A DNA stretch of 51,463 bases from an uncultured Bacteroidota bacterium (GTDB lineage: Bacteria; Bacteroidota; Bacteroidia; Chitinophagales; LD1): NCBI GenBank assembly GCA_903919075.1, contig CAIXGR010000014.1, positions 1-51,463 of the forward strand, written 5' to 3'. The notes below the pieces were generated by a model. It searched no databases and was not told the origin of the DNA. It saw nothing but the letters and a program-made list of their open reading frames with translations. How positions within the stretch are numbered: position 1 is the stretch's first letter; each line of letters starts with the position of its first letter. Shown one piece after another: positions 4,555 through 43,422 of the stretch. The position numbers and the translations under genes were made by a program.

Positions 4555-5849
4555 TATTTGCTATTCATTATTTCCTCAATCTCGTCAGCCTCAATAGGTA
4601 TATTTTTCATCAGGTCAACCGGTTTGCCATTGGTGATGAGGATGTTGTTTTCTATTCTTATACCCAATTTTTCTTCGCGAATGTAAATACCCGGTTCGCA
4701 GGTAAGCACGGTACCCGCTTTTAATTTTTCGAAACGGTTACCTACATCATGCACATCTAAACCGAGAAAGTGGGCGGTGCCGTGAGGAAAATATTTTTTA
4801 TAAAGTGGTGCGTTCTTATCTTGTTTGCTGATGTCGCTCTTTTTTAAAAGGCGAAGTTTTACTAATTCATCTTCCATTAAACTGCGCACTTCAATGTGGT
4901 TTATCTCGTTCATTAACGCGCCATTTTTCATCATTTCCTTTGCTGCGTTATGCACTCTTAGCACAGCATTATAAACTGCTTTTTGCCGCTTGGTAAATTT
5001 GCCGCTTACCGGCACTGTGCGGGTTAAATCGGCATTGTAGTTAGCATATTCTGCTGCTGCATCCATTAAAACTAATTCGCCCGCCTGGCATTGTGCATCG
5101 TTCGAAACATAATGAAGTACGCAGGCGTTACCACCGGTAGCAATAATAGGCTCGTAAGCATGGCCAGTACCGCGGTTAATAATATACTCATGTGTTAGCT
5201 CGGCCTCAATTTCGTATTCCCAAACGCCGGGTTTTATAAATTTAAGCACACGGTTAAAGCCTTTAGCGGTAATATCAACTGCCTGTTTCAACAAACCAAT
5301 CTCATAACTTGATTTTGACACACGCAGATTGTGCATAATAGGCGCAGCCCTTTCATACTTGTGTAATGGGAAAGCCCTCTTCGCCTTTTGAACAAACTTT
5401 GTCTCGGCTGTTTCATCAGCCGATGTATTCCGGTCATGCTCGTTAGTATTCAAATAAACATGATCAGCATAATGCATTAACATGTTAAAAATGCCATCGA
5501 AATCGTTGCTCCAAATCACTGTTTCTACGCCCGAAATTTGAGAGGCATCCTGAATAGTGTGCTTTTTGCCTTCCCACCACATAATATGTTCGTTGGTTTT
5601 GCGTATAAACAATACCTCGCGGTATTTTTCTTCGGGGGCATCAGGAAAAATTATCAGGTAAGTTTCCTCCTGGTCAATGCCGGAAAGATAAAAAAGGTCG
5701 GGATTTTGGCGCCATTTATAGTTAGCATCGGCGCTGCGGGTTAAAATATCATTGGAAACAAAAACAGCTATAGAATTCTTTTTCATTTGTTTTGAAAAAT
5801 TTTTCCTGTTTTGTTTAAACATTTCGGCGTTAATAGATTGGTACCGCAT
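4554..5849 (-). CDS. pepP: Xaa-Pro aminopeptidase (peptidase M24B)
   Basis: A 431-residue metallo-aminopeptidase that removes N-terminal residues preceding proline. The N-terminal AMP_N domain (about 1-165, with LFYLSGIDQEETYLI and MWWEGKKHT) is followed by the pita-bread M24 domain. Dimanganese ligands are visible: the Asp pair in LMDAAAEYANYNADLTRT, His in FPHGTAHFLGLDVHD, Glu in TCEPGIY and Glu in IRIENNILI. It is the first gene of the overlapping pepP-pssA-purS set and is divergent from pckA with 145 bp between them. No clear TAnnTTTG box was found on its side. Confidence 0.95.
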   Translation of the reverse strand: MRYQSINAEMFKQNRKNFSKQMKKNSIAVFVSNDILTRSADANYKWRQNPDLFYLSGIDQEETYLIIFPDAPEEKYREVLFIRKTNEHIMWWEGKKHTIQDASQISGVETVIWSNDFDGIFNMLMHYADHVYLNTNEHDRNTSADETAETKFVQKAKRAFPLHKYERAAPIMHNLRVSKSSYEIGLLKQAVDITAKGFNRVLKFIKPGVWEYEIEAELTHEYIINRGTGHAYEPIIATGGNACVLHYVSNDAQCQAGELVLMDAAAEYANYNADLTRTVPVSGKFTKRQKAVYNAVLRVHNAAKEMMKNGALMNEINHIEVRSLMEDELVKLRLLKKSDISKQDKNAPLYKKYFPHGTAHFLGLDVHDVGNRFEKLKAGTVLTCEPGIYIREEKLGIRIENNILITNGKPVDLMKNIPIEADEIEEIMNSK

Positions 5850-5955
5850 ATTGATTTTTATATGTTTAGGGCGAAAATAAATGAAATATAGTTAGAGACG
5901 AATTTTAGAAGTAATTTTGATGACAGTAATCATTTTTAGGATTAAAATCTTGGGT

Positions 5956-5963
5956 TAACTTTG
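5956..5963 (+). promoter_or_regulatory. Bacteroidota -7 element (TAACTTTG) of pckA
   Basis: TAACTTTG matches the TAnnTTTG -7 consensus of the Bacteroidota housekeeping sigma factor. It lies 31 bp before the pckA start codon and predicts a leader of about 27 nt. The TTTG box expected about 20 bp upstream is weak. Confidence 0.5.
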
Positions 5964-5994
5964 CCCGCTTAAATGTAAAATCAAATCTGCGATT

Positions 5995-7608
5995 ATGAAC
6001 ACGGTAGGCCCGAAGAACCCTAAGGCGAGTCTTGAAACCCTTGGGATAAAGAACACCAAAACTGAATATTGGAACCTTACGCCCGAGGAATTAATTGAAG
6101 AAACGATACGAAGAAACCAAGGGGTTTTAAGCGACACAGGGGCTTTAGCCATTGATACCGGGGAGTTTACGGGCCGCTCGCCTAAAGACAAATTTATAGT
6201 TAAAGATTCGGGTACAAAGGACTCGGTAGACTGGGGTGGATTTAACAACCCTATAGAACCTTCAGTATTCGACAACTTATATAATAAAGTAACAGCCTAT
6301 TTTGCAGGTAAAGATGTTTTTGTGCGCGATTGCTATGCCTGCGCCGATGATGCTTATAAATTGAACGTTCGTGTTGTTACCGAATACCCTTGGGCAAACA
6401 TGTTTGCCTATAATATGTTTTTGCGCCCAACGGCCAACGAACTTGCCTCAATTGACCCGAATTGGATAGTTATACAGGCCCCTAACCTGCGTGCCGAAGG
6501 AACAAAAGATGGAATACGCCAACATAACTTTTCAATTATCAACTTTACTAAGAAAATTGCCATTATAGGCGGCTCGGCGTATACCGGTGAAATTAAAAAG
6601 GGAATTTTTACCGTGTTGAATTATGTGCTTACGCACGAGAAGAAAGTGCTTGCTATGCACTGCTCAGCGAATGTTGGTAAAGATGGAGATGTAGCTTTAT
6701 TTTTTGGATTAAGTGGCACCGGTAAAACAACTCTATCAGCCGACCCTAACCGCCCTTTGATTGGCGACGATGAGCACGGCTGGTCGGAAACGGGTGTGTT
6801 TAATTTTGAAGGTGGTTGCTATGCCAAGTGTATTGACCTTTCAGCAGAAAAGGAACCGGATATTTATAAGGCTATCAGACACGGAGCTATTTTAGAGAAC
6901 ATTAATTTTTTTGAAGGCACACGCACGGTTGATTATGCGAATAAAGCACGGACGGAAAACACCCGCGTCTCCTACCCTATTCATTTTATTGATAATGCTT
7001 TAAAAAAATCGGTTGCCGGGGAACCGAAGAATATATTTTTCCTTACCTACGATGCTTTTGGTGTGTTGCCTCCTATTTCGAAACTTACTATCGGGCAGGC
7101 TATGTATCTTTTCTTATCTGGGTTTACATCGAAGGTTGCTGGAACTGAAGCTGGCGTTACTGAACCACAAACTACTTTTTCAACTTGCTTTGGCGCTCCA
7201 TTTTTGCCTTTGCACCCTACCGAATACGCTTCGCTGCTTGGTAAAAAACTGCGCAACTCGAAAATTAATGTGTGGTTATTAAATACCGGTTACACAGGTG
7301 GCCCTTATGGTGTTGGCAAGCGCATGAGCCTTAAACACACCCGCTCGTTAATTACCGAAGCATTAAGTGGCGACTTATATAAGGTTGATTACGAAACGCA
7401 CCCTGTGTTTGGTTTGGCTATGCCTAAAACCTGCCCCAATGTTCCATCAGAAATATTGAACCCACGAAATACCTGGAGCAATAAGGCTAACTACGATGCT
7501 AAAGCCAATGAACTTGCATTAGCCTTTATTAAAAACTTCGAGAAGTTTGCAGCAAAATCTGAAGAGGAAATTCTGAAGGCTGCGCCGAAGGTGGTGCAGT
7601 TGGTGTAA
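5995..7608 (+). CDS. pckA: Phosphoenolpyruvate carboxykinase (ATP)
   Basis: A 537-residue ATP-dependent PEPCK, which converts oxaloacetate and ATP to phosphoenolpyruvate, CO2 and ADP at the entry to gluconeogenesis. Clear motifs are the substrate-binding TGRSPKDKF (about residues 59-67), the kinase-1a P-loop GLSGTGKT (238-245), the Mg2+-binding LIGDDEHGW and the adenine-side NTGYTGGPYGVGKR. Length is normal for the family. Its stop is one base from the lspA stop on the other strand, with no room for a private terminator. Confidence 0.98.
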   Translation: MNTVGPKNPKASLETLGIKNTKTEYWNLTPEELIEETIRRNQGVLSDTGALAIDTGEFTGRSPKDKFIVKDSGTKDSVDWGGFNNPIEPSVFDNLYNKVTAYFAGKDVFVRDCYACADDAYKLNVRVVTEYPWANMFAYNMFLRPTANELASIDPNWIVIQAPNLRAEGTKDGIRQHNFSIINFTKKIAIIGGSAYTGEIKKGIFTVLNYVLTHEKKVLAMHCSANVGKDGDVALFFGLSGTGKTTLSADPNRPLIGDDEHGWSETGVFNFEGGCYAKCIDLSAEKEPDIYKAIRHGAILENINFFEGTRTVDYANKARTENTRVSYPIHFIDNALKKSVAGEPKNIFFLTYDAFGVLPPISKLTIGQAMYLFLSGFTSKVAGTEAGVTEPQTTFSTCFGAPFLPLHPTEYASLLGKKLRNSKINVWLLNTGYTGGPYGVGKRMSLKHTRSLITEALSGDLYKVDYETHPVFGLAMPKTCPNVPSEILNPRNTWSNKANYDAKANELALAFIKNFEKFAAKSEEEILKAAPKVVQLV

Positions 7609-7609
7609 A

Positions 7610-8245
7610 TTAACTTACAACAGTAGTTTCGGATTTCTCAGTGGTTTCCTCCTTCACAAAAAACCACTTCTGAAAAATAATTATAATCAACACCCCGGTG
7701 GTAATAGCCGAATCGGCAATATTGAAAATGGCGTTGAAAAATTCGAATGGTTCATCTTTCCAAATGGGCATCCAATGAGGAAAAACGCCTCGGTATAATG
7801 GAAAGCGTAACATATCAACCACCTGCCCTTGCATAATGCCCGCATAGCCTCCGCCTTTAGGCAAAACCTCAGCAATTCTTCCATAACTATCCGAAAAAAC
7901 GAGGCCGTAAAAAGCGCCATCAATTAAGTTGCCTAAGGCACCGGCCAAAATAAAACAACAGGCAGTAATAAAACCCCAATGTGTTTTTTGTTTAAACAGG
8001 CCGAGGATATACCAGATACCCACCGATACAGCCACCAGGCGCATAATGCTTAGTATCATTTTACCCCAAATACCCGGTAGCTCCATACTAAAAGCCATGC
8101 CCCGGTTTTCGGCAAAGTGTATGCGAAACCAGTTGGTGATAATAATTTCTTCATCCAGTATCATGTGGGTTTTAACCCAAATTTTTAAAGCCTGGTCCAG
8201 TAGTATAATAACGAGAACAAGAATTAGTGCGTGGTATTTTTTCAA
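7610..8245 (-). CDS. lspA: Lipoprotein signal peptidase (signal peptidase II)
   Basis: A 211-residue inner-membrane aspartyl protease that cleaves prolipoprotein signal peptides ahead of the lipid-modified Cys. Conserved blocks are present: NRGMAFS after the first helix, GALGNLIDG with the first catalytic Asp, and FNIADSAI with the second. The insertion between these blocks (about residues 115-150, periplasmic) makes it longer than the roughly 165-residue proteobacterial enzyme; this is usual for Bacteroidota. The window encodes at least one lipoprotein substrate (28460-29239). Confidence 0.96.
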   Translation of the reverse strand: MKKYHALILVLVIILLDQALKIWVKTHMILDEEIIITNWFRIHFAENRGMAFSMELPGIWGKMILSIMRLVAVSVGIWYILGLFKQKTHWGFITACCFILAGALGNLIDGAFYGLVFSDSYGRIAEVLPKGGGYAGIMQGQVVDMLRFPLYRGVFPHWMPIWKDEPFEFFNAIFNIADSAITTGVLIIIIFQKWFFVKEETTEKSETTVVS

Positions 8246-8430
8246 TGCTTAATTTTTATGCGGTGCAAACGTATTGAAAAGAAATCACTTGATTTTAAGG
8301 TATTTTATTTCCTATTAAGTTTTTTAACAACAGCATTAAAGCCCCGTTAAAAATTATTTTTTAAAGAGAATATTATTATTTTTAATATTATAACTTTCAA
8401 AGCATCTATTATAAATAATAAACAATACTC

Positions 8431-9486
8431 ATGGACAAAAAACTATATATTACCATTACTTTTTGTGTAGTGATTTTTTTGCTTTGCCATGCACAGGCCC
8501 CCGAAGTTATTAACTATCAGGCTGTAATTCGTAATTCAGCCGGGCAGCCCCTTCCGGGAGGGCAGGCCGTAGGGCTTAGTTTTAATGTGCTCAATAATTC
8601 AGATACAGGTCAGATTGTTTATCAGGAAACAGCTACCGATACCACCAACGCTTTAGGCATTATAAACTATAAAATAGGCAGCCATGCAAGTTTAGGCGTA
8701 ATAAATTGGAGCAACGGAGCCAAATTTCTACAAGTAAAAGTAGATCCTGCCGGTGGTAGCAATTATGTAAATATGGGCACCTCACAACTTTTAAGTGTTC
8801 CTTATGCTCTTTTTGCCAACAACAGCGCCTCAGGCCCACGGGGGCCAACTGGTGCTACGGGTAATAATGGCATTCAAGGAGCCACAGGGGCAATAGGTAT
8901 CAAAGGCGCTACCGGTGCTACAGGCCCTATCGGCATTCAGGGCGTAACCGGTGCTATAGGTGTTACAGGAACTACTGGTGCTACAGGCGCCACCGGTGGT
9001 TTTACTGTAAACATAGGCGACTTATATGGTGGCGGTATTGTAGTATCTGTTTGGGACTCGCAAGGCGTGCAGCATGGTTTAATAGCTTCTTTAACTGATA
9101 TAAGCACCAATGCAACATGGAGCAATGTTCAAACCACACAAATTGGAACATCGGCTCAAAGCCCCAGCAATGGAAAGGCCAACACAGCCGCAATTATTGC
9201 ACAGCCCGGGCATACTTCCAGTGCGGCCCAATTATGTCGATCGTACAACGGTGGGGGTTATACCGATTGGTATTTGCCTGCACTTGCCGAGTTATACGAA
9301 TGCCACCGTGCCTGGGCTATTGTAAACCGAAATTTAGGTGATACTGACGGGTTTCTAACTGCCAACTACTGGAGTTCGAGCGAGGGAGATAGTCAGAATG
9401 CTCGTTGGATATTATTTAGCACAGGCCTTGGGGACTTTGGTAACAAGATCAATACTTTTGGGGTTAGAGCTGTTCGGAGATTTTAA
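8431..9486 (+). CDS. Secreted protein with collagen-like G-X-Y repeat and C-terminal Lcl/DUF1566-like domain
   Basis: A 351-residue exported protein. A signal peptide (1-22) leads into an N-terminal domain beginning [16 protein letters not shown] (about 27-130), a module often seen on Bacteroidota surface or tail-fibre-like proteins. Residues 135-191 form 19 uninterrupted Gly-X-Y triplets, many GAT or GPT, able to form a collagen triple helix and so implying a trimer. The C-terminal domain (about 195-351) has [29 protein letters not shown] and FGVRAVRRF, typical of DUF1566/Lcl C-terminal domains. There is no T9SS tail. A role in adhesion is inferred from the architecture. Confidence 0.8.
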
Positions 9487-9506
9487 AAATCGGAAGCCCA
9501 CATTCT

Positions 9507-10304
9507 TCACATTAACTTATTACGACCTATAAATTTTGCAAACAAACCCGGTGCAAAACGATTTAGCATTACCGCTAATTTTTCTTTCGTACCAGCTATT
9601 ATAATTTCTTGTTTGTCGCTACTAATAGCCTCTAATATCTTACCGGCTACAAACTTTGGAGGGAGGCCATTAGTAATATTCGTGCTTTCTCTATTACTGG
9701 CAACCCCATCTTTATTCAACGAGCTTTTAGCGATATTGGTTTTTACAAACCCCGGGCATACCAGTAATACATTAATGCCTTCTCGAAAAACTTCTGCTCG
9801 CAGGGCATTATAAAAACCATGCAGTGCCTGTTTACTGGCAGCATACGCGCTTTGTTTTGGGGTATATATTTTACCCATTACGCTGCTTATTACTACAATC
9901 TGCCCTTGTTTGCGTGCCAGCATTTCGGGCAATACTGCTTTGGTTAAAGCCACGCCACCCATAAAATTAGTATCCATTATTTTTTTAATCACCCCCAAAC
10001 CGGTATCGCTAACTTTCGACCAATGGCCTAAACCCGCATTGTTAATCAAAACATCAATTTGCCCAAAATGTGTGATTGCCTTTTGTGTGTATTGTGCCAT
10101 CAATTCATATTCCGAAACATCCATCGGCAATATCAAAATATCGCTATCCGGCAGGTTGCAATTCTTCTTTACCCGTTCCAATTCATCAACTCTTCGTGCC
10201 GAAAGAATCAACTTTGCCTTTTGGGCCGCAAAGGCATAAGCCAGTGCTTCGCCTATTCCTGATGAGGCCCCCGTTATCCAAATTACTTTATTTTGGAAGT
10301 TCAT
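9507..10304 (-). CDS. Short-chain dehydrogenase/reductase (SDR)
   Basis: A 265-residue classical SDR with an N-terminal NAD(P)-binding TGASSGIG (11-18), the Asp-containing strand before the INNAG motif, an active-site Ser in VVISSVMG and the YAASK catalytic Tyr/Lys. The Arg pair after beta2 (SARRVDELER) favours NADPH. The C terminus is hydrophobic enough to resemble DltE/YqjQ-like SDRs with a membrane-proximal tail. Substrate unknown. The gene converges on 8431-9486 and stands alone. Confidence 0.9.
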   Translation of the reverse strand: MNFQNKVIWITGASSGIGEALAYAFAAQKAKLILSARRVDELERVKKNCNLPDSDILILPMDVSEYELMAQYTQKAITHFGQIDVLINNAGLGHWSKVSDTGLGVIKKIMDTNFMGGVALTKAVLPEMLARKQGQIVVISSVMGKIYTPKQSAYAASKQALHGFYNALRAEVFREGINVLLVCPGFVKTNIAKSSLNKDGVASNRESTNITNGLPPKFVAGKILEAISSDKQEIIIAGTKEKLAVMLNRFAPGLFAKFIGRNKLM

Positions 10305-10465
10305 TTTTACTTGATTTTACATAAAAGTAAACCTAAAAGGACAATCTTAAAGCTTTGATAACCAATTTTTGTTCAAATCAAGGGGGTTACACTTTTGAAA
10401 TTATACCACTGAAAATCAATAATTTATAAAAAAACAGTGTTACCCCCTGTTAGCCCCCTTATTGG

Positions 10466-10497
10466 TTTGGATTTTTACGCTTATTAAAGTATATTTG
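10466..10497 (+). promoter_or_regulatory. Promoter of the rpsF operon (TTTG-N20-TATATTTG)
   Basis: TTTG at 10466-10469 and TATATTTG at 10490-10497, exactly 20 bp apart, match the Bacteroidota housekeeping promoter. It is the best such match in the window. The predicted leader before rpsF is about 53 nt. Confidence 0.75.
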
Positions 10498-10501
10498 CCG
10501 C

Positions 10502-10522
10502 CCGCCTGTAAAAACACAGGGG
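10502..10522 (+). promoter_or_regulatory. Leader hairpin upstream of rpsF, candidate S6:S18 autoregulatory element
   Basis: The leader contains CCTGT (10505-10509) pairing with ACAGG (10516-10520) around a 6-nt loop, extended by CC/GG pairs past a bulged G at 10504 and preceded by a CCGCC-rich stretch. Many phyla carry an rpsF leader bound by the S6:S18 complex that presents CCG in a bulge. This hairpin is in the right place, but covariation was not tested. Confidence 0.35.
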
Positions 10523-10553
10523 ATATTTTTTAACCTAAACAAAGCAGAAAAAC

Positions 10554-10946
10554 ATGCTTACACAGTACGAAACAGTATTTATTCTCACTCCTGTGTTATC
10601 GGAAGATGACACCAAGAAGGCGATCAACAATTATGTTGAGCTCCTTAAGTCCTCGGGAGCAGAGATCGTTCACCAGGAAGCCTGGGGCCTTAAAAATCTT
10701 CGCTACCAAATCGGTAAAAAGAATACCGGTATTTATCACGTAGTAGAATACAGAGGCAACGGCAAAGTTGTTGATACTTTAGAAATCGCCTTCCGTCGCG
10801 ATGAGAACATCATCCGCTACTTAACGGTGAAACTTGACAAGTATGCACTAAAATACAATAACGACAAACGCGCGGGTATTGTAGGAAGAAACAAGAAAGT
10901 TAATAATAACGTTACCGAAAAAGCAAAGGAGGAAGTAGCATCATGA
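10554..10946 (+). CDS. rpsF: 30S ribosomal protein S6
   Basis: A 130-residue S6 that binds 16S rRNA in the platform as a heterodimer with S18. The N-terminal [24 protein letters not shown] and [10 protein letters not shown] strands are typical. The C-terminal extension is basic and then acidic ([17 protein letters not shown]), as is frequent in this phylum. Its stop overlaps the start of rpsR (ATGA), so S6 and S18 are translationally coupled. First gene of rpsF-rpsR-rplI. Confidence 0.97.
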
Positions 10947-11212
10947 AACCATCAAACGACCAAATAAAATACTTAACAGCCACCAAGATTGGCTTAATTA
11001 GAAAAAAATACTGCCGTTTTAAAAAGAACGGTATCAAATACATCGATTATAAAGATCCTGACTACTTGTTGAAATTCATCAACGAACAAGGTAAAATGCT
11101 TCCGCGCAGATTATCGGGCAACTCGCTTAAATACCAGCGTAAAATTAGCCAGGCAATTAAGCGTGCACGCCACATTGCTATTTTACCTTATGTAGCCGAT
11201 CTTTTAAAATAG
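10943..11212 (+). CDS. rpsR: 30S ribosomal protein S18
   Basis: An 89-residue S18. Characteristic blocks are [17 protein letters not shown], the loop ending in [15 protein letters not shown] and the C-terminal [13 protein letters not shown]. There is no CxxC zinc-ribbon pair, only one Cys, so this is a zinc-free form. Translation probably depends on rpsF because of the 4-nt overlap. The 54-bp gap to rplI shows no terminator. Confidence 0.97.
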
Positions 11213-11266
11213 ATTGCGCTTTAAACAGATTTGAAAAAAATTTAAAGACACAGAAAAGCTTAAACA

Positions 11267-11716
11267 ATGGAACTGATTCTTATAAAAGATGTAGAAAAAC
11301 TGGGCTACGCCGACGACTTAGTTAACGTGCGCCCCGGTTACGGATTAAATTTCCTGTTACCACAGGGATATGCTGTTGTAAAAAACGATAGCAGCTTAGC
11401 TCAACGTGCAGGCAGAATTAAATCGCGCGAAAAAAAGGAAGCGAAATTGCTTGAACAGTTTAATGAAATATCAAGCCGCTTACAAAGCTCAACAGTTAAA
11501 ATTGGCGCTAAAGTAGGCACTACCGGAAAAATTTTCGGCAGCGTATCTCCTTACCATATTGCCGAGGCTATCAAAAACCAATTACAGGTTGAAGTTGACC
11601 GTAGAAAAATTAAAATAGTGGAAGGCGAAGTAAAACAACTAGGCAACTATACAGCCGAAATTGGTTTAGGTGCCAGCCATAAGGTTAACGTTACTTTTGA
11701 AGTAGTTGCCGAATAA
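11267..11716 (+). CDS. rplI: 50S ribosomal protein L9
   Basis: A 149-residue L9. The N-terminal domain has ELILIKDVEKLGYADDLVNVRPGYGLNFL-type sequence, followed by the long connecting helix (about 41-75, rich in Lys, Arg and Glu) and the C-terminal rRNA-binding domain with GKIFGSVSP and the KIKIVEGEVKQLG strand. The length is standard. It ends the S6 operon, and a strong intrinsic terminator follows 30 bp later. Confidence 0.97.
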   Translation: MELILIKDVEKLGYADDLVNVRPGYGLNFLLPQGYAVVKNDSSLAQRAGRIKSREKKEAKLLEQFNEISSRLQSSTVKIGAKVGTTGKIFGSVSPYHIAEAIKNQLQVEVDRRKIKIVEGEVKQLGNYTAEIGLGASHKVNVTFEVVAE

Positions 11717-11745
11717 ATTATTTTTCTAAAAATATACCAATCCTG

Positions 11746-11776
11746 AAACCCTGTCGTTATTGACAGGGTTTTTATT
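11746..11776 (+). terminator. Intrinsic terminator of the rpsF-rpsR-rplI operon
   Basis: A perfect 10-bp stem (AAACCCTGTC / GACAGGGTTT) with a 6-nt loop is followed by TTTATTTTTA. It sits 30 bp after the rplI stop. Confidence 0.9.
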
Positions 11777-11785
11777 TTTACATAA

Positions 11786-12388
11786 GTGAAGTCAATATCA
11801 ATTAAAAATTCAGCTCATATTTCTTGCTTACTGAATACACTCAGCGTTTTCAATAAACAGTTGGTTTTACTATTGCTACTGTTTATTTCCTACTCTGCGT
11901 TTCCCCAACTCAACTTCGATTATACAGCGGGTAAATTCATGATAAAAGGGCAGGTTGTAGATATTGAAACTAAAAAGCCGGTGCCAATGACCAATGTTTT
12001 AATAGTTAACTCGGGCAGAGGAATAACTTCCGATAATGATGGGCGCTTTACCATGTATGTTTCACTAAAAGATACTTTGCGGTTTTCATCTACCGGTTAT
12101 CTCAGTAAAATAATTCATATGCATGATGTTGATTCAACCAGGTATTACACCATGGTAATCGAGATTATTCACGATTTTATAAAACTGAAGGAAATAACTA
12201 TATATCCTTTTAAAGATATTGAGGAGTTTAAAAAGGCATTTGTTGATAAAAAAGGAATAAAGTTTACGGGTATTGCACCGCCTAAGTATAGCAACAAAAC
12301 TGTAATGCCAAATTTCAGCAATCCACTTTCGTTGCTTTACGAACGCGTAAAAAGACGTAGTGTGGCTGACCCTAATTTTAAGCCGTAA
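11786..12388 (+). CDS. Exported protein with a carboxypeptidase-regulatory-like (CarboxypepD_reg) domain
   Basis: A 200-residue protein beginning with GTG at the edge of the preceding terminator. The N-terminal hydrophobic stretch (about 25-40, ending SAFPQ) is a signal peptide. Residues about 52-110 form a beta-sandwich of the CarboxypepD_reg family (IKGQVVDIETKKPVPMTNVLI, GRGITSDNDGRF, DTLRFSSTGY), as found at the N termini of SusC-like receptors, but here it stands alone. The C-terminal part is basic and ends without a sorting tail. Probably periplasmic; role unknown. The start lies so close to the terminator that its promoter must overlap it or lie within it. Confidence 0.75.
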   Translation: MKSISIKNSAHISCLLNTLSVFNKQLVLLLLLFISYSAFPQLNFDYTAGKFMIKGQVVDIETKKPVPMTNVLIVNSGRGITSDNDGRFTMYVSLKDTLRFSSTGYLSKIIHMHDVDSTRYYTMVIEIIHDFIKLKEITIYPFKDIEEFKKAFVDKKGIKFTGIAPPKYSNKTVMPNFSNPLSLLYERVKRRSVADPNFKP

Positions 12389-35141: not shown

Positions 35142-36059
35142 CTAAACTACAGCGCTGTTTGCTTCTTCACGTACCGGAACATTATTCTGCACTTTCGTTT
35201 GCTTTGCTTTTTCAATTCTTTCCAAGCGCATTGAATACGATTTGTAACCTTTGCTAAACGCACCCATTACATAAGTTCTAAAAAGGTATGACCAAAGGCC
35301 GCTTTCAATAAGGTGGGGCGCAATAAGGTGTTCTATTTTTTTGTGCTCAGCCGGTGCTTCGCTCCAGTGTAACGATGCGCGGTGGTGGTGAATGGTATGG
35401 TAACCATTGTTGAACAGAAAAAAGTTAACGCCCATAAAATTACGTGAATGGTTGTAGTCTGACTCTTCATCCGCATGCACGTGCTGTACGTAATTAAAAA
35501 TCATTACCGCAAACTGTGAAACTTGTTGCGGGATAAAAACATAAAGTAATGCCTTCTTCCAATTCCATACAAAAAAAACAACCCACCATAATACCAGAAA
35601 CGCTAATTGTGTCAGGTTTTGGTAATACTGATCACGATTTCTTGCTTTGAGGTCCTTCATATAAGGTATAATACCTTCTTTAATTTGATGGACACCACTT
35701 TGGCTGGGGTATTGAATTAAGGAAACAAAATCGTTATGCTCTGTATGACGATAAGTACGCGTTACATCTTCCTCACGATTATTATACCGGTGGTGGTTAC
35801 GGTTATGGGTTGGAATCCAAGCAAAAATAGGAAAACCATAAAACGCAGTAAGCCACCAATCGGTTAAAATATTCAGCCATTTTTTGGTCCAAATATTTAC
35901 GTGGTTATGGTTGTGTGTAATTACCGCCACTGCTATTGCAAAATGCAAATAAACAATGTAGGCTATCCAATTAAAACCATAATGCCATTGCAACACAAAC
36001 ATGGTTGTGGTTATAAAAAAGTAGACAAGGGTCTTTAAATCAGCCTTATATTTCAGCAT
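35142..36059 (-). CDS. Membrane fatty acid / sphingolipid desaturase-like di-iron enzyme
   Basis: A 305-residue membrane desaturase. I chose start MLKYKADLKT because a TTTG-N20-TATGTTTA promoter lies inside the longer in-frame reading. Three His boxes are intact: H49-NHN-H53, H85-NRN-HH90 and H221-TI-HHH226, with QHVH (193-195) as an extra pair. At least four TM segments. The enzyme should insert a double bond (or hydroxyl) using O2 and two irons. It lies 270 bp after a methyltransferase of the sphingolipid C9 type, whose fungal relatives act on a delta-8-unsaturated base. That substrate link is inference. Confidence 0.88.
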   Translation of the reverse strand: MLKYKADLKTLVYFFITTTMFVLQWHYGFNWIAYIVYLHFAIAVAVITHNHNHVNIWTKKWLNILTDWWLTAFYGFPIFAWIPTHNRNHHRYNNREEDVTRTYRHTEHNDFVSLIQYPSQSGVHQIKEGIIPYMKDLKARNRDQYYQNLTQLAFLVLWWVVFFVWNWKKALLYVFIPQQVSQFAVMIFNYVQHVHADEESDYNHSRNFMGVNFFLFNNGYHTIHHHRASLHWSEAPAEHKKIEHLIAPHLIESGLWSYLFRTYVMGAFSKGYKSYSMRLERIEKAKQTKVQNNVPVREEANSAVV

Positions 36060-36081
36060 ATGTAGGGTTATATATGTGTTG

Positions 36082-36113
36082 TAAACATAGGTTATAAGCA
36101 ATAAAAAAACAAA
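36082..36113 (-). promoter_or_regulatory. Promoter of the 35142-36059 desaturase (TTTG-N20-TATGTTTA)
   Basis: On the minus strand TTTG (36110-36113) and TATGTTTA (36082-36089) are 20 bp apart, one mismatch from the full consensus. The predicted transcript starts about 20 nt before the ATG at 36059, which decides the start choice. Confidence 0.55.
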
Positions 36114-36219
36114 CAAAGGAATGCACAATTATGGCAACCAAAAGGTGCTAAAACTGGCAAACCACACTTCTTAATCAATTGAAATACATATAGTTAACAT
36201 TCTATTTAAGTATTCCAAT

Positions 36220-36236
36220 CACTGTTAAAAACAGTG
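36220..36236. repeat. Short perfect hairpin between methyltransferase and desaturase genes
   Basis: CACTGTT and AACAGTG form a 7-bp stem with a 3-nt loop. No T-run follows on the minus strand, so read-through from the methyltransferase gene to the desaturase gene remains possible. Confidence 0.4.
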
Positions 36237-36329
36237 TATAAACCTGATTAAAATCAATAACATTAAACTGCTTTTATATAGCAACAGTAAGTAAAACGGT
36301 ATTGCCGCCTGTTTATTTCGTTCGCTACA

Positions 36330-37598
36330 TTACGCCGTTGCTTCCTGTGGCTGTTTAGGGCTCTCTGCTGGTTTCATACCATACAGTTGCGCCCAAACAC
36401 CGGTATATGGCCTATCGAAATTCATTGGATTTTTAATATCCATACGTAAGCCGGTTTGAGTATCCTTTATGTATTTGTTACGGTCAGTTTTATCCAGGTT
36501 TTTATGCGCTGTAATACTCCAGCAAGTTGAATTTCCCTGCGCTGCAACATCTACGCTCCAACGTAAGAATAACTGCCACATTCTGAACAAACGCACGCCG
36601 TAGTGTTCTTTAATATACTCTTCATTACGCATCCAGTTGTAATACCATTTATGGATAGTATGAGAATAGTGTATGCCTATGTTTTCAATATGCACCGCTT
36701 CGAAATTGGCATTTTGTAAAGCGCTTACAAGGAATGCAAGAGGTGTAGAAGCATCGGCACCACTAAATATATTCTCGCCCATAAATAAGCCCCAAATCAA
36801 ATCTTGCCAGTGCTGTCCTTTTGAGAAAATACCAGGATTAGCACGTAAGCCGGCTTGTTGCAAATAGAACAACCCGTCTTCTTCTAACATATCATAAATG
36901 GTTTTAATGAAACCGTTGAATTTACGAATACCAACGTGTTCGCCCATTTCAAGACAAGAAATTTTATTCCATTTTCTGCCTTGTGGTATATCGCGGTAAT
37001 CCATACGCAAAATTCTTGCTCTGTCGCTTACACCAAAATCTTTTATTTGTTGAGTGCCCCAATCGTATCCATCTTGTGCAATGGTAACACCGGTGCTATC
37101 CATACCGAAATTTTTAGCAGAGTATGCAGCTAATGTGCCCCATCCGCAACCAATATCAAGGTGACGCTCGCCCGGTTTCATGATAAGCTTATTACAAACC
37201 ATATTCATTTTACGGTCTTGCGCTATTTCCAAACTTTCTTTTTCAGGGTCAAGAAAAAAGCCGCTGGTGTAAACCATACGCGGGCCTAAGAAAGCGGCAA
37301 AGAAATCATTCCCACGATCATAGTGAGCACGTACAATACGCTCATCCTGGCTTTTTGAATGTATCAACACCTCAGGTATAAACCGGGTGAAGAAAAATTT
37401 AAAGTGGTGGGGGGTTAATGAATACTCAAAATAACCGCCACGAAGTTTCATGAATTCTTCGAAATCGCCTTTTACGTCAATATCACCATTCATAAAATCT
37501 TCTACAAAATATCCGAATGATGGCTTATTAGTGCTTTTATACCGTGCACGTGTGGCGTTTGTTTTTGGAACAATGAAATCCAAAGCTGATACTGACAT
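36330..37598 (-). CDS. SAM-dependent methyltransferase, CFA-synthase superfamily, closest by eye to fungal sphingolipid C9-methyltransferases
   Basis: A 422-residue soluble enzyme. Landmarks are AHYDRGNDFF (91-100), MVYTSGFF, SAM motif LDIGCGWG (147-154), MDYRDIP (199-205), CLEMGEHVG (215-223, with the CFA-family active-site Glu), DLIWGLFM, GADASTPL (280-287), IGIHYSHTIHKWYYNW, LFRMWQLFL and NSTCWSIT. CFA synthases share the core, but IWGLFM, GADASTPL, the HYS...W..NW block and TCWxIT are those I recall from fungal glucosylceramide C9-methyltransferases. The two TM helices of the fungal enzymes are missing. Expected chemistry: methyl transfer to a lipid double bond. Confidence 0.8.
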   Translation of the reverse strand: MSVSALDFIVPKTNATRARYKSTNKPSFGYFVEDFMNGDIDVKGDFEEFMKLRGGYFEYSLTPHHFKFFFTRFIPEVLIHSKSQDERIVRAHYDRGNDFFAAFLGPRMVYTSGFFLDPEKESLEIAQDRKMNMVCNKLIMKPGERHLDIGCGWGTLAAYSAKNFGMDSTGVTIAQDGYDWGTQQIKDFGVSDRARILRMDYRDIPQGRKWNKISCLEMGEHVGIRKFNGFIKTIYDMLEEDGLFYLQQAGLRANPGIFSKGQHWQDLIWGLFMGENIFSGADASTPLAFLVSALQNANFEAVHIENIGIHYSHTIHKWYYNWMRNEEYIKEHYGVRLFRMWQLFLRWSVDVAAQGNSTCWSITAHKNLDKTDRNKYIKDTQTGLRMDIKNPMNFDRPYTGVWAQLYGMKPAESPKQPQEATA

Positions 37599-42354: not shown

Positions 42355-43422
42355 ATGGATTTGGTTATAAACGACCCGGTTTTTATACCCAGAAATAATT
42401 ACAATTTCATTGAAAGACAATTTCTGAAATTAATTCGCGATGAGCGCGACTTGCCTTTTATAAAATTATGCCTGCGCATTATACTTTTTGTTATACCAGT
42501 ATCGGTATTTCTTTTCTTTCATTTTACGTGGTGGTTGGCTGTGCCTTTTTTAGTGTTTAATATTGCTACCGGGTTGGGGCCGTTTATTTTAATGCTGCAT
42601 AATACATCGCACAGGAAACTATTTAAACAGGAATATGATTATCTGAACAAAATTATTCCGTGGTTTTTAGGGCCTTTTTATGGCGAAACACCTGAGACAT
42701 ATTTTAGCCACCATATAATGATGCACCATGCAGAAAATAATTTGGCCGATGACCTAAGCTGCACGATGAACTACCAACGCGATAGTTTTATTGATTTCAT
42801 GAAATACTTTTCGCTGTTTTTCTTTTTAGGCATTGGCGATTTGACTTATTATTTTACTCGTAAGAACCGGTGGAAGTTTGTAAAAAAAGTATTGGTAGGT
42901 GAGATTGGTTTTACCATTGCATGTATAGGCTTATGCTTTGTTAACTGGCAGGCTACATTAATGGTTTTTATACTACCATTTGTAATTGCGCGCTTTGGCA
43001 TGATGGCCGGTAACTGGGGCCAACACGCATTTATTAATGCTGCCGACCCCGCAAACAATTATACAAACAGCCTTACCTGCATTAACAGCAATTACAATAA
43101 ACTTTGCTTTAACGATGGCTACCACATTGGCCACCACCTTCGCCCGAGCATGCACTGGACCGAAATGCCGGTAGAGTTTGAAAAAAATATTGAGAAGTAC
43201 AAACAGAACGATGCTATTGTTTTTGAGGGTATTGATTTTTTTGTGGTGTGGTTTATGCTGGTAACACACAATTATAAATTCCTGGCCTCGAAATATGTTG
43301 ACCTTGCAGGAAGGTTTACATCGAAAGAAGAGGTCATTAATTTCCTCAAAACGCGCGTTGCTAAAATTGAAATGAAACGTGGCTACCCTAACATTAATGT
43401 TATTTTTAATAATGTGCATTAA
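42355..43422 (+). CDS. Fatty acid desaturase family membrane protein
   Basis: A 355-residue membrane di-iron enzyme. His boxes: HNTSH (82-86), SHHIMMHH (119-125, an HxxxHH variant) and GYHIGHH near the C terminus. Four or more TM segments. The second box is altered from the usual HxxHH, so the exact reaction (desaturation or hydroxylation) is uncertain. It follows the helicase gene by 58 bp and could be co-transcribed; desaturase and helicase induction together fit a cold response, but that is inference. It is only weakly similar to the desaturase at 35142. Confidence 0.85.
   Translation: MDLVINDPVFIPRNNYNFIERQFLKLIRDERDLPFIKLCLRIILFVIPVSVFLFFHFTWWLAVPFLVFNIATGLGPFILMLHNTSHRKLFKQEYDYLNKIIPWFLGPFYGETPETYFSHHIMMHHAENNLADDLSCTMNYQRDSFIDFMKYFSLFFFLGIGDLTYYFTRKNRWKFVKKVLVGEIGFTIACIGLCFVNWQATLMVFILPFVIARFGMMAGNWGQHAFINAADPANNYTNSLTCINSNYNKLCFNDGYHIGHHLRPSMHWTEMPVEFEKNIEKYKQNDAIVFEGIDFFVVWFMLVTHNYKFLASKYVDLAGRFTSKEEVINFLKTRVAKIEMKRGYPNINVIFNNVH

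Follow-up and report, generated by a model that had tools for sequence, protein, structure and literature searches.

A candidate lipid-chain methylation pair with features of fungal sphingolipid C9-methylation in an uncultured Bacteroidota bacterium

Methylation of glucosylceramide at C9 is treated as a fungal hallmark, and the C9-methyltransferase is described as "only found in fungi" in the accessible part of a recent paper (PMC9325734). According to the same excerpts, the enzyme of Neurospora crassa (NCU07859/smt) is 525 residues long, with membrane helices at positions 53–75 and 87–109, and an EHV triplet at position 341 is absent from a mutant allele (PMC9325734). The fungal delta-8 desaturases listed in the available text of another study have 584 and 625 residues (PMC6471014). 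Escherichia coli cyclopropane-fatty-acid (CFA) synthase binds bicarbonate through Glu239, His266, and Tyr317, and mutation of the ligands lowers its activity, as stated in the portion of the source at hand (PMC11387697). The literature that we examined was mostly open-access, and no bacterial C9-methyltransferase is described in what was found there. Here, we describe a methyltransferase gene (MT) and a desaturase gene (DS) from an uncultured Bacteroidota bacterium of the order Chitinophagales. They lie in a stretch of 51,463 nucleotides, hereafter the window, which is the entire contig C14 (CAIXGR010000014.1) of a 3.5 Mb genome with a completeness of 99.6%. The features of the pair are as follows.

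36330..37598, minus strand: MT, putative S-adenosylmethionine (SAM)-dependent lipid-olefin methyltransferase of a C9-methyltransferase-like clade of the CMAS superfamily; open reading frame of 422 residues; CMAS PF02353
36060..36329, minus strand: gap between the MT stop and the corrected DS start, with one sigma-70-like match
35142..36059, minus strand: DS, predicted integral-membrane desaturase; 305 residues from the corrected Met start; FA_desaturase PF00487

We propose that MT and DS are a dedicated lipid-chain modification pair with a methyl-branched, still unsaturated product, and we give this proposal a probability of roughly 0.6. DS would place a double bond in the long chain of a membrane lipid, and MT would move a methyl group from SAM onto that double bond, like the fungal sphingolipid C9-methyltransferases. 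Because the bicarbonate site of CFA synthases is altered, the reaction of MT would probably end with the loss of a proton and not with closure of a cyclopropane ring. The resulting chain, sphingoid or acyl, would bear a mid-chain methyl branch and remain unsaturated. What the sequences show is where MT falls among its relatives, that the His ligand of CFA synthases is gone, that the two genes co-occur and in some genomes are linked, and that some relatives have a fungal-like layout; we infer the order of the steps, the product, and the substrate. The pair thus suggests an undescribed branched membrane lipid.

An earlier note on this DNA had described MT as a methyltransferase with a CFA-type core and a set of characteristic sequence blocks, but without transmembrane helices, and both descriptions are confirmed. 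MT matches the Pfam CMAS model PF02353 with 202 bits (cut-off 27), and its translation contains IWGLFM, GADASTPL, HYSHTIHKWYYNW, and STCWSIT. No hydrophobic window of transmembrane strength is present in MT (maximum Kyte–Doolittle value of 1.09 over 19 residues). One further CMAS match above the cut-off, with 34 bits, is located elsewhere in the genome. The closest PDB sequences to MT are CFA synthases (7qos, 1.1e-51). The predicted structure of MT (mean pLDDT 86.7) has the CFA fold, and the model matches CmaA1 with a Z-score of 36.4 and 7qos with a Z-score of 35.8 over 320 residues. The CMAS domain and the CFA fold are what would be expected of an ordinary CFA synthase accompanied by a bystander desaturase. 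However, MT reaches only 181 bits against the NCBIfam CFA equivalog, the cut-off of which is 400. This score, the separate placement of MT, its active-site residues, and its co-occurrence with DS led us to reject the CFA synthase explanation, which we consider highly improbable.

The placement of MT was determined from two trees. Among named GTDB genomes, a scan listed 80 matches, four of which are 49–50% identical to MT (Aureispira, Polyangia, Kiritimatiellae, and Myxococcales) and 76 at most 35%; there are at least 80 such loci, so further named relatives may exist. The first tree, of 70 rows, used 38 of the 76 CFA-like loci. It separates 28 MTs from the remaining rows by a branch with a support of 100/97 and a stem of 1.56, and the long row L002 meets the MT clade at the midpoint root. 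The second tree, of 66 rows, used 11 CFA rows and omitted L002, and the MT clade is again apart (support 100/100, stem 1.92). Both trees omit the copy of genome G029, which is split over two overlapping frames of a short contig. The fragmentary copy of G490 (L283) was excluded from the 66-row tree and from the residue count of 54 copies given below. MT is therefore placed outside the ordinary CFA synthases; a position firmly inside them is what the earlier note had named as fatal to its idea. Nine viral loci are related to MT by 28–35% identity, compared to at least 47% within the clade, and were kept out of the trees.

MT was aligned with E. coli CFA to locate its active-site positions. Of the bicarbonate ligands, Glu239 and Tyr317 correspond to Glu220 and Tyr311 of MT, which are invariant within the clade. 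The position of His266 is occupied by Gln247 in all 28 MTs of the first set, and in 54 of 54 with the Myxococcota copies added, compared to His in 35 of the 38 CFA rows. Ile268 is replaced by Ala (26 copies) or Thr (two copies) in the 28 MTs, and is Ile in 35 of the 38 CFA rows. Cys139 is replaced by Ser in 24 and Thr in four of the 28 MTs. Glu217 of MT, located before a Met-x-Glu-His-Val segment, is Glu in 28 of 28 clade rows (54 of 54 with the Myxococcota copies), and the CFA rows have Gly (36 of 38) or Glu (2 of 38) at this position. The altered site suggests that MT would handle the cation differently after methyl transfer.

DS matches the Pfam model FA_desaturase PF00487 with 90 bits (cut-off 29.7). 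Its open reading frame was listed as 35142–36128, with a TTG start at 36128. Relatives of DS begin aligning at a conserved Met-Leu/Lys-x-Tyr/Phe-x-Ala-Asp start, the Met of which is 23 residues into the listed frame. The listed TTG start is therefore probably wrong, and we moved the start codon to 36057–36059. The resulting distance from the MT stop to the DS start is about 270 bp, so the two genes are adjacent and co-oriented but do not form a tight operon in this genome. The earlier note's picture of a desaturase directly downstream on the same strand thus holds for position and orientation. The sigma-70-like match within the gap is located at 36228–36199 on the minus strand. Promoter-like sites in the region of the gap are not above chance, with 10 found and 12.5 expected.

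DS contains the histidine boxes HxxxH, HxxHH, and HxxHH, and a conserved FNxxQH segment, as seen in 16 aligned sequences. Residues H49/H53, H85/H89/H90, and H221/H224/H225 are invariant among the 16. The third box of DS reads HTIHH, where a front-end desaturase would have QxxHH. A Pfam scan found neither a Cyt-b5 domain nor a Lipid_DES PF08557 domain in DS. DS is accordingly not of the b5-fused front-end type to which the fungal delta-8 desaturases belong. DS has no sequence relatives in the PDB at E up to 1. A second membrane desaturase is encoded in the window at 42355–43422 on the plus strand; it belongs to PF00487, weakly matches the Delta(10) desaturase DesB, and is 27% identical to DS. 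Several relatives of the window's organism, MT-bearing or not, contain 24–30% matches to DS, which are perhaps orthologues of this second desaturase.

The occurrence of DS follows that of MT. Of the 25 MT-positive genomes compared, 22 contain a relative of DS with at least 47% identity, as do only 2 of the 25 MT-negative ones (p = 1e-8). The MT-positive sample consisted of 24 genomes drawn from the order and the Aureispira record, and the MT-negative genomes were picked, not randomly, from listed rows, leaving out the genus mates G001, G004, and G008. The association is also present within family f1 (9 of 11 compared to 2 of 14, p = 0.001) and within genus g1 (5 of 6 compared to 1 of 9, p = 0.01). 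DS is apart from MT in 16 of the 22 genomes, on other contigs in 14 and megabases away in two, so the co-occurrence is not mere linkage. Because DS tracks MT although the genes are unlinked in most genomes, the pair looks functional, and the dedicated desaturase partner proposed for MT in the earlier note is supported. Linked pairs occur as well. In genus g24, DS comes first, with a gap to MT of 39–49 bp in G049, G091, and G097, and in G066 a DS beside MT is truncated at the contig end. The genes are two genes apart in G010. A desaturase 33% identical to DS is located 29 bp behind a membrane-helix MT in Myxococcota genome G575. Other neighbors of MT and DS recur in some close genomes, but none was seen across the order or phylum. 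Judged by eye, a flavin monooxygenase-like gene and an alpha/beta hydrolase gene are near the g24 pair at L179 (G091, 5224–12336), and also at L177 and L178. A short-chain dehydrogenase/reductase gene is also near the pair in G091 and G097 by the same judgment. None of these three genes was observed close to the pair of the congener G049.

Several observations weigh against the proposed pair or its details. Gln at the His266 position also occurs in the actinobacterial rows L067 and L085 and in the Myxococcota copy G625, which is on the CFA side and has Gly at the Glu217 position. L106 keeps His though it stands beside an apparent flavin oxidoreductase, a neighbor judged by eye. A rule that Gln in place of His means the absence of a ring is therefore weakened, and a changed bicarbonate ligand alone does not prove a ring-free product. 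Three MT-positive genomes have no DS, namely G003 (69% complete), G027 (91%), and G255 (99%), and the MT-negative genomes G011 and G026 have it. Polyangia genome G061 and Kiritimatiellae genome G062 contain no DS relative at E 1e-10. The sampled genomes are related to each other, so the p-values overstate their independence. Judged from its third histidine box and domain content, DS is not of the front-end delta-8 type, which counts against the sphingolipid form of the proposal.

MT is sparsely distributed. It was found in 21 of 393 genomes of the order, including that of the window, always with more than 400 bits, and the order has no matches between these and E 1e-60. The clade is present in 26 of 377 Myxococcota genomes; the count was reduced from 27 since the copy of G625 (L284) groups with the CFA rows in the 66-row tree. 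One copy was found in Kiritimatiellae (G062; L041). The window's order contributes 25 copies to the 66-row tree, all in one group (100/99), and the Aureispira copy falls inside the clade of the order in the 70-row tree. A larger group with a support of 100/100 contains the 25 copies, nine Myxococcota copies with membrane helices, the Kiritimatiellae copy, and one further Myxococcota copy. This group nests within other Myxococcota rows, with moderate support at the deeper forks (84/91 and 85/89), and the exact sister of the 25 copies is weakly placed (80/32). The 66-row tree thus shows a spread between bacterial groups, with the copies of the window's order inside a Myxococcota-rich clade. Movement on a shorter scale is suggested by G347, a genome of another family, with an identity of 81% for MT but 48% for DS, and by its congener G193, with 55% for MT. 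MT would thus have been transferred from one family to another and would act together with the desaturase already resident there.

The nine Myxococcota copies (L274–L282) are extended at the N-terminus by a region that includes two to three hydrophobic segments. Six of them have open frames of 480–523 residues, and the frames of the other three are longer. From EHVG to the C-terminus, the nine copies have 175 residues, compared to about 184 in the N. crassa enzyme, and the last membrane helix is 220–224 residues before EHV (L281, L275, and L277), compared to 232, as far as the published excerpts give the fungal positions. The predicted architecture of these copies, N-terminal membrane helices followed by a methyltransferase domain, is that of the fungal enzymes. 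Our comparison with fungi used one printed 13-residue peptide of MTS1, a primer fragment, and published lengths and helix positions. The peptide, ITSVEMAEHVGIR, is listed for Candida albicans MTS1 in a table in the accessible part of its source (PMC8229660). It has the Glu of the MT clade, not the Gly of the CFA rows, before Met-x-Glu-His-Val. Overall identity to this peptide was rejected as a test, with 8–10 of 13 residues matched in the clade and 4–10 of 13 in the CFA rows, three of which reach 10. The N. crassa primer fragment, read as DPNKEE from the available text (PMC9325734), is matched at four of six positions by MT of the window and at two to three of six by seven other rows, and was set aside as too short.

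The Glu of the MTS1 peptide is consistent with sphingolipid C9-methylation proper, in which DS would make a delta-8 or nearby double bond and MT would methylate C9 of the sphingoid base. We regard this explanation as doubtful, although several gene contents agree with it. The genome of the window encodes a serine palmitoyltransferase (SPT) at G000:C29:5147-6406, with 3a2b as the best PDB match (2.9e-118); its best NCBIfam model is SerpalmtaseCFB, at 486 bits and below the cut-off of 640. A separate gene contains the Lipid_DES domain PF08557 of delta-4-type sphingolipid desaturases. The earlier note's association of MT with sphingolipids is thus partly supported: its suggested check for SPT was positive in this genome, but the presence of SPT does not follow that of MT across the genomes compared. 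SPT was scored as present at 45% or more identity to the SPT of the window's genome, counting partial matches (G003 and G029), and was found in 16 of 25 MT-positive and 10 of 25 MT-negative genomes of the order sample (p = 0.16). Strict dependence of MT on SPT was rejected on these counts. The corresponding numbers within genus g1 are 4 of 6 and 8 of 9. Myxococcota genes matching NF047600 with at least 385 bits were taken as SPT-like, the other matches having at most 346 bits, and they occur in 12 of 26 MT-positive and 4 of 20 MT-negative genomes (p = 0.12). The counts for Lipid_DES in Myxococcota are 4 of 26 and 1 of 20 (p = 0.37). Of all 36 MT-positive genomes scanned, G625 included, 9 had a Lipid_DES match, as did 1 of the 20 MT-negative Myxococcota.

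Individual carriers point in both directions. In G575, the membrane-helix MT and its adjacent desaturase are accompanied by genes for a Lipid_DES desaturase and an SPT-like enzyme. MT of Myxococcota genome G499 (L265, 7836–11500) is flanked by a fatty-acid hydroxylase gene on one side and a Lipid_DES desaturase gene on the other. The Kiritimatiellae genome G062 encodes, just before MT and on the same strand of L041, a cytochrome-b5 piece (8410–8991) and, across a frame break, a piece of a desaturase (9056–9817) that contains a QIEHH box. We take this combination to be the fungal delta-8 type. Elsewhere in G062, a Lipid_DES desaturase gene has neighbors encoding an epimerase-type reductase and a GNAT protein; in other bacteria, proteins of these kinds act as the ceramide reductase and the ceramide synthase. 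The predicted partner desaturase thus differs by lineage, with DS in the order of the window and a b5 desaturase with a QxxHH box beside the single Kiritimatiellae MT. The MT of this copy has an in-frame stop at 10990, with similarity continuing to 11086; the frame break and the stop within 8410–11086 reflect pseudogenes or sequencing errors. However, G499 and G062 have these sphingolipid-type modification genes but no SPT-type match above the KBL range. The four genomes of genus g24 with the DS–MT pair have only KBL- and BioF-like relatives and no SPT-type match, and none was found in the pair-bearing G006 and G010. Part of this absence may be due to assembly or a second replicon, because G273 has no SPT, and G336, with an identical MT, has one on another contig.

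Some further oxoamine-synthase-like genes were observed. L121 (G000:C97:121217-122368), L217 of Kiritimatiellae, and L218 of G255 belong to the alpha-oxoamine-synthase family and are 50–62% identical among themselves. L121 and L218 match the NCBIfam models bioF, KBL, and SPT, but reach the cut-off of none of them. A PDB search with L121 gave no match at E 1e-60. The three could be an unusual SPT-like enzyme. Two more genes of the window's genome, L123 (G000:C21:32473-33552) and L124 (G000:C70:16528-17601), are pyridoxal-phosphate-dependent, oxoamine-synthase-like, and of similar score; the best NCBIfam model of L124 is PRK07505, a hypothetical protein.

Carriers of the pair without an SPT-type match (genus g24, G006, and G010) are better accommodated by acyl-chain branching. 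DS would then be an acyl-lipid desaturase, and the substrate of MT would be a glycerophospholipid or aminolipid, methylated on an unsaturated acyl chain to yield a tuberculostearate-like or an unsaturated methyl-branched fatty acid. The N-terminal region and fold that MT shares with phospholipid-acting CFA synthases (7qos, 320 residues aligned) agree with this explanation, for which we see a little less than an even chance. On the other hand, MT is outside the actinobacterial rows, and no tuberculostearate-type oxidoreductase was noticed directly beside MT when neighbors were judged by eye, but the flavin monooxygenase-like gene does occur close to three of the g24 pairs. The sphingolipid explanation fits some carriers and not others, and all of them would be explained by an MT family that modifies unsaturated chains in more than a single lipid class. 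For the organism of the window, we consider the acyl chain of another lipid an even bet as the substrate of MT, and a sphingoid base or ceramide somewhat less likely.

The MT-bearing bacteria are organisms in which to seek a new branched lipid. Their clade, with copies of the same layout, is a candidate origin of the fungal gene. We speculate that the fungal C9-methylation module has its bacterial counterpart, and perhaps its source, in Myxococcota, Kiritimatiellae, and Bacteroidota. In this view, a C9-type methyltransferase, with membrane helices in some Myxococcota, would work with a desaturase that depends on the lineage, and the bacteria would make methyl-branched unsaturated sphingoid bases so far undescribed in bacteria; we consider this unlikely as a whole. 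If true, a trait called "only found in fungi" would be an old and mobile bacterial one. The lineage-specific paired desaturase makes the order of desaturation followed by methylation directly testable. Outside the pair, the window also encodes a type IX secretion system (T9SS) sorting domain.

Compared to CFA synthases such as those of E. coli (6bqc) and A. aeolicus (7qos), MT has the same predicted fold, SAM motif, and bicarbonate-site Glu and Tyr. However, it is 25–31% identical to the solved full-length enzymes, belongs to a clade of its own, and has Gln instead of the His ligand. The tuberculostearate methyltransferases, which we take to be of the BfaB/UfaA type and to correspond to actinobacterial rows picked by eye, perform the ring-free olefin methylation that we propose for MT. 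Two actinobacterial rows have the Gln and Glu of the MT clade at both signature positions. Nevertheless, MT is in a different clade from the actinobacterial rows, and its partner is a desaturase. Relative to the fungal C9-methyltransferases of C. albicans (MTS1) and N. crassa (NCU07859/smt), MT of the window lacks the membrane helices and is about 100 residues shorter, and DS is not of the b5-fused front-end type of the fungal pathway. The CMAS-type core is common to the bacterial and fungal enzymes, and the clade's Glu before EHVG is present in the MTS1 peptide.

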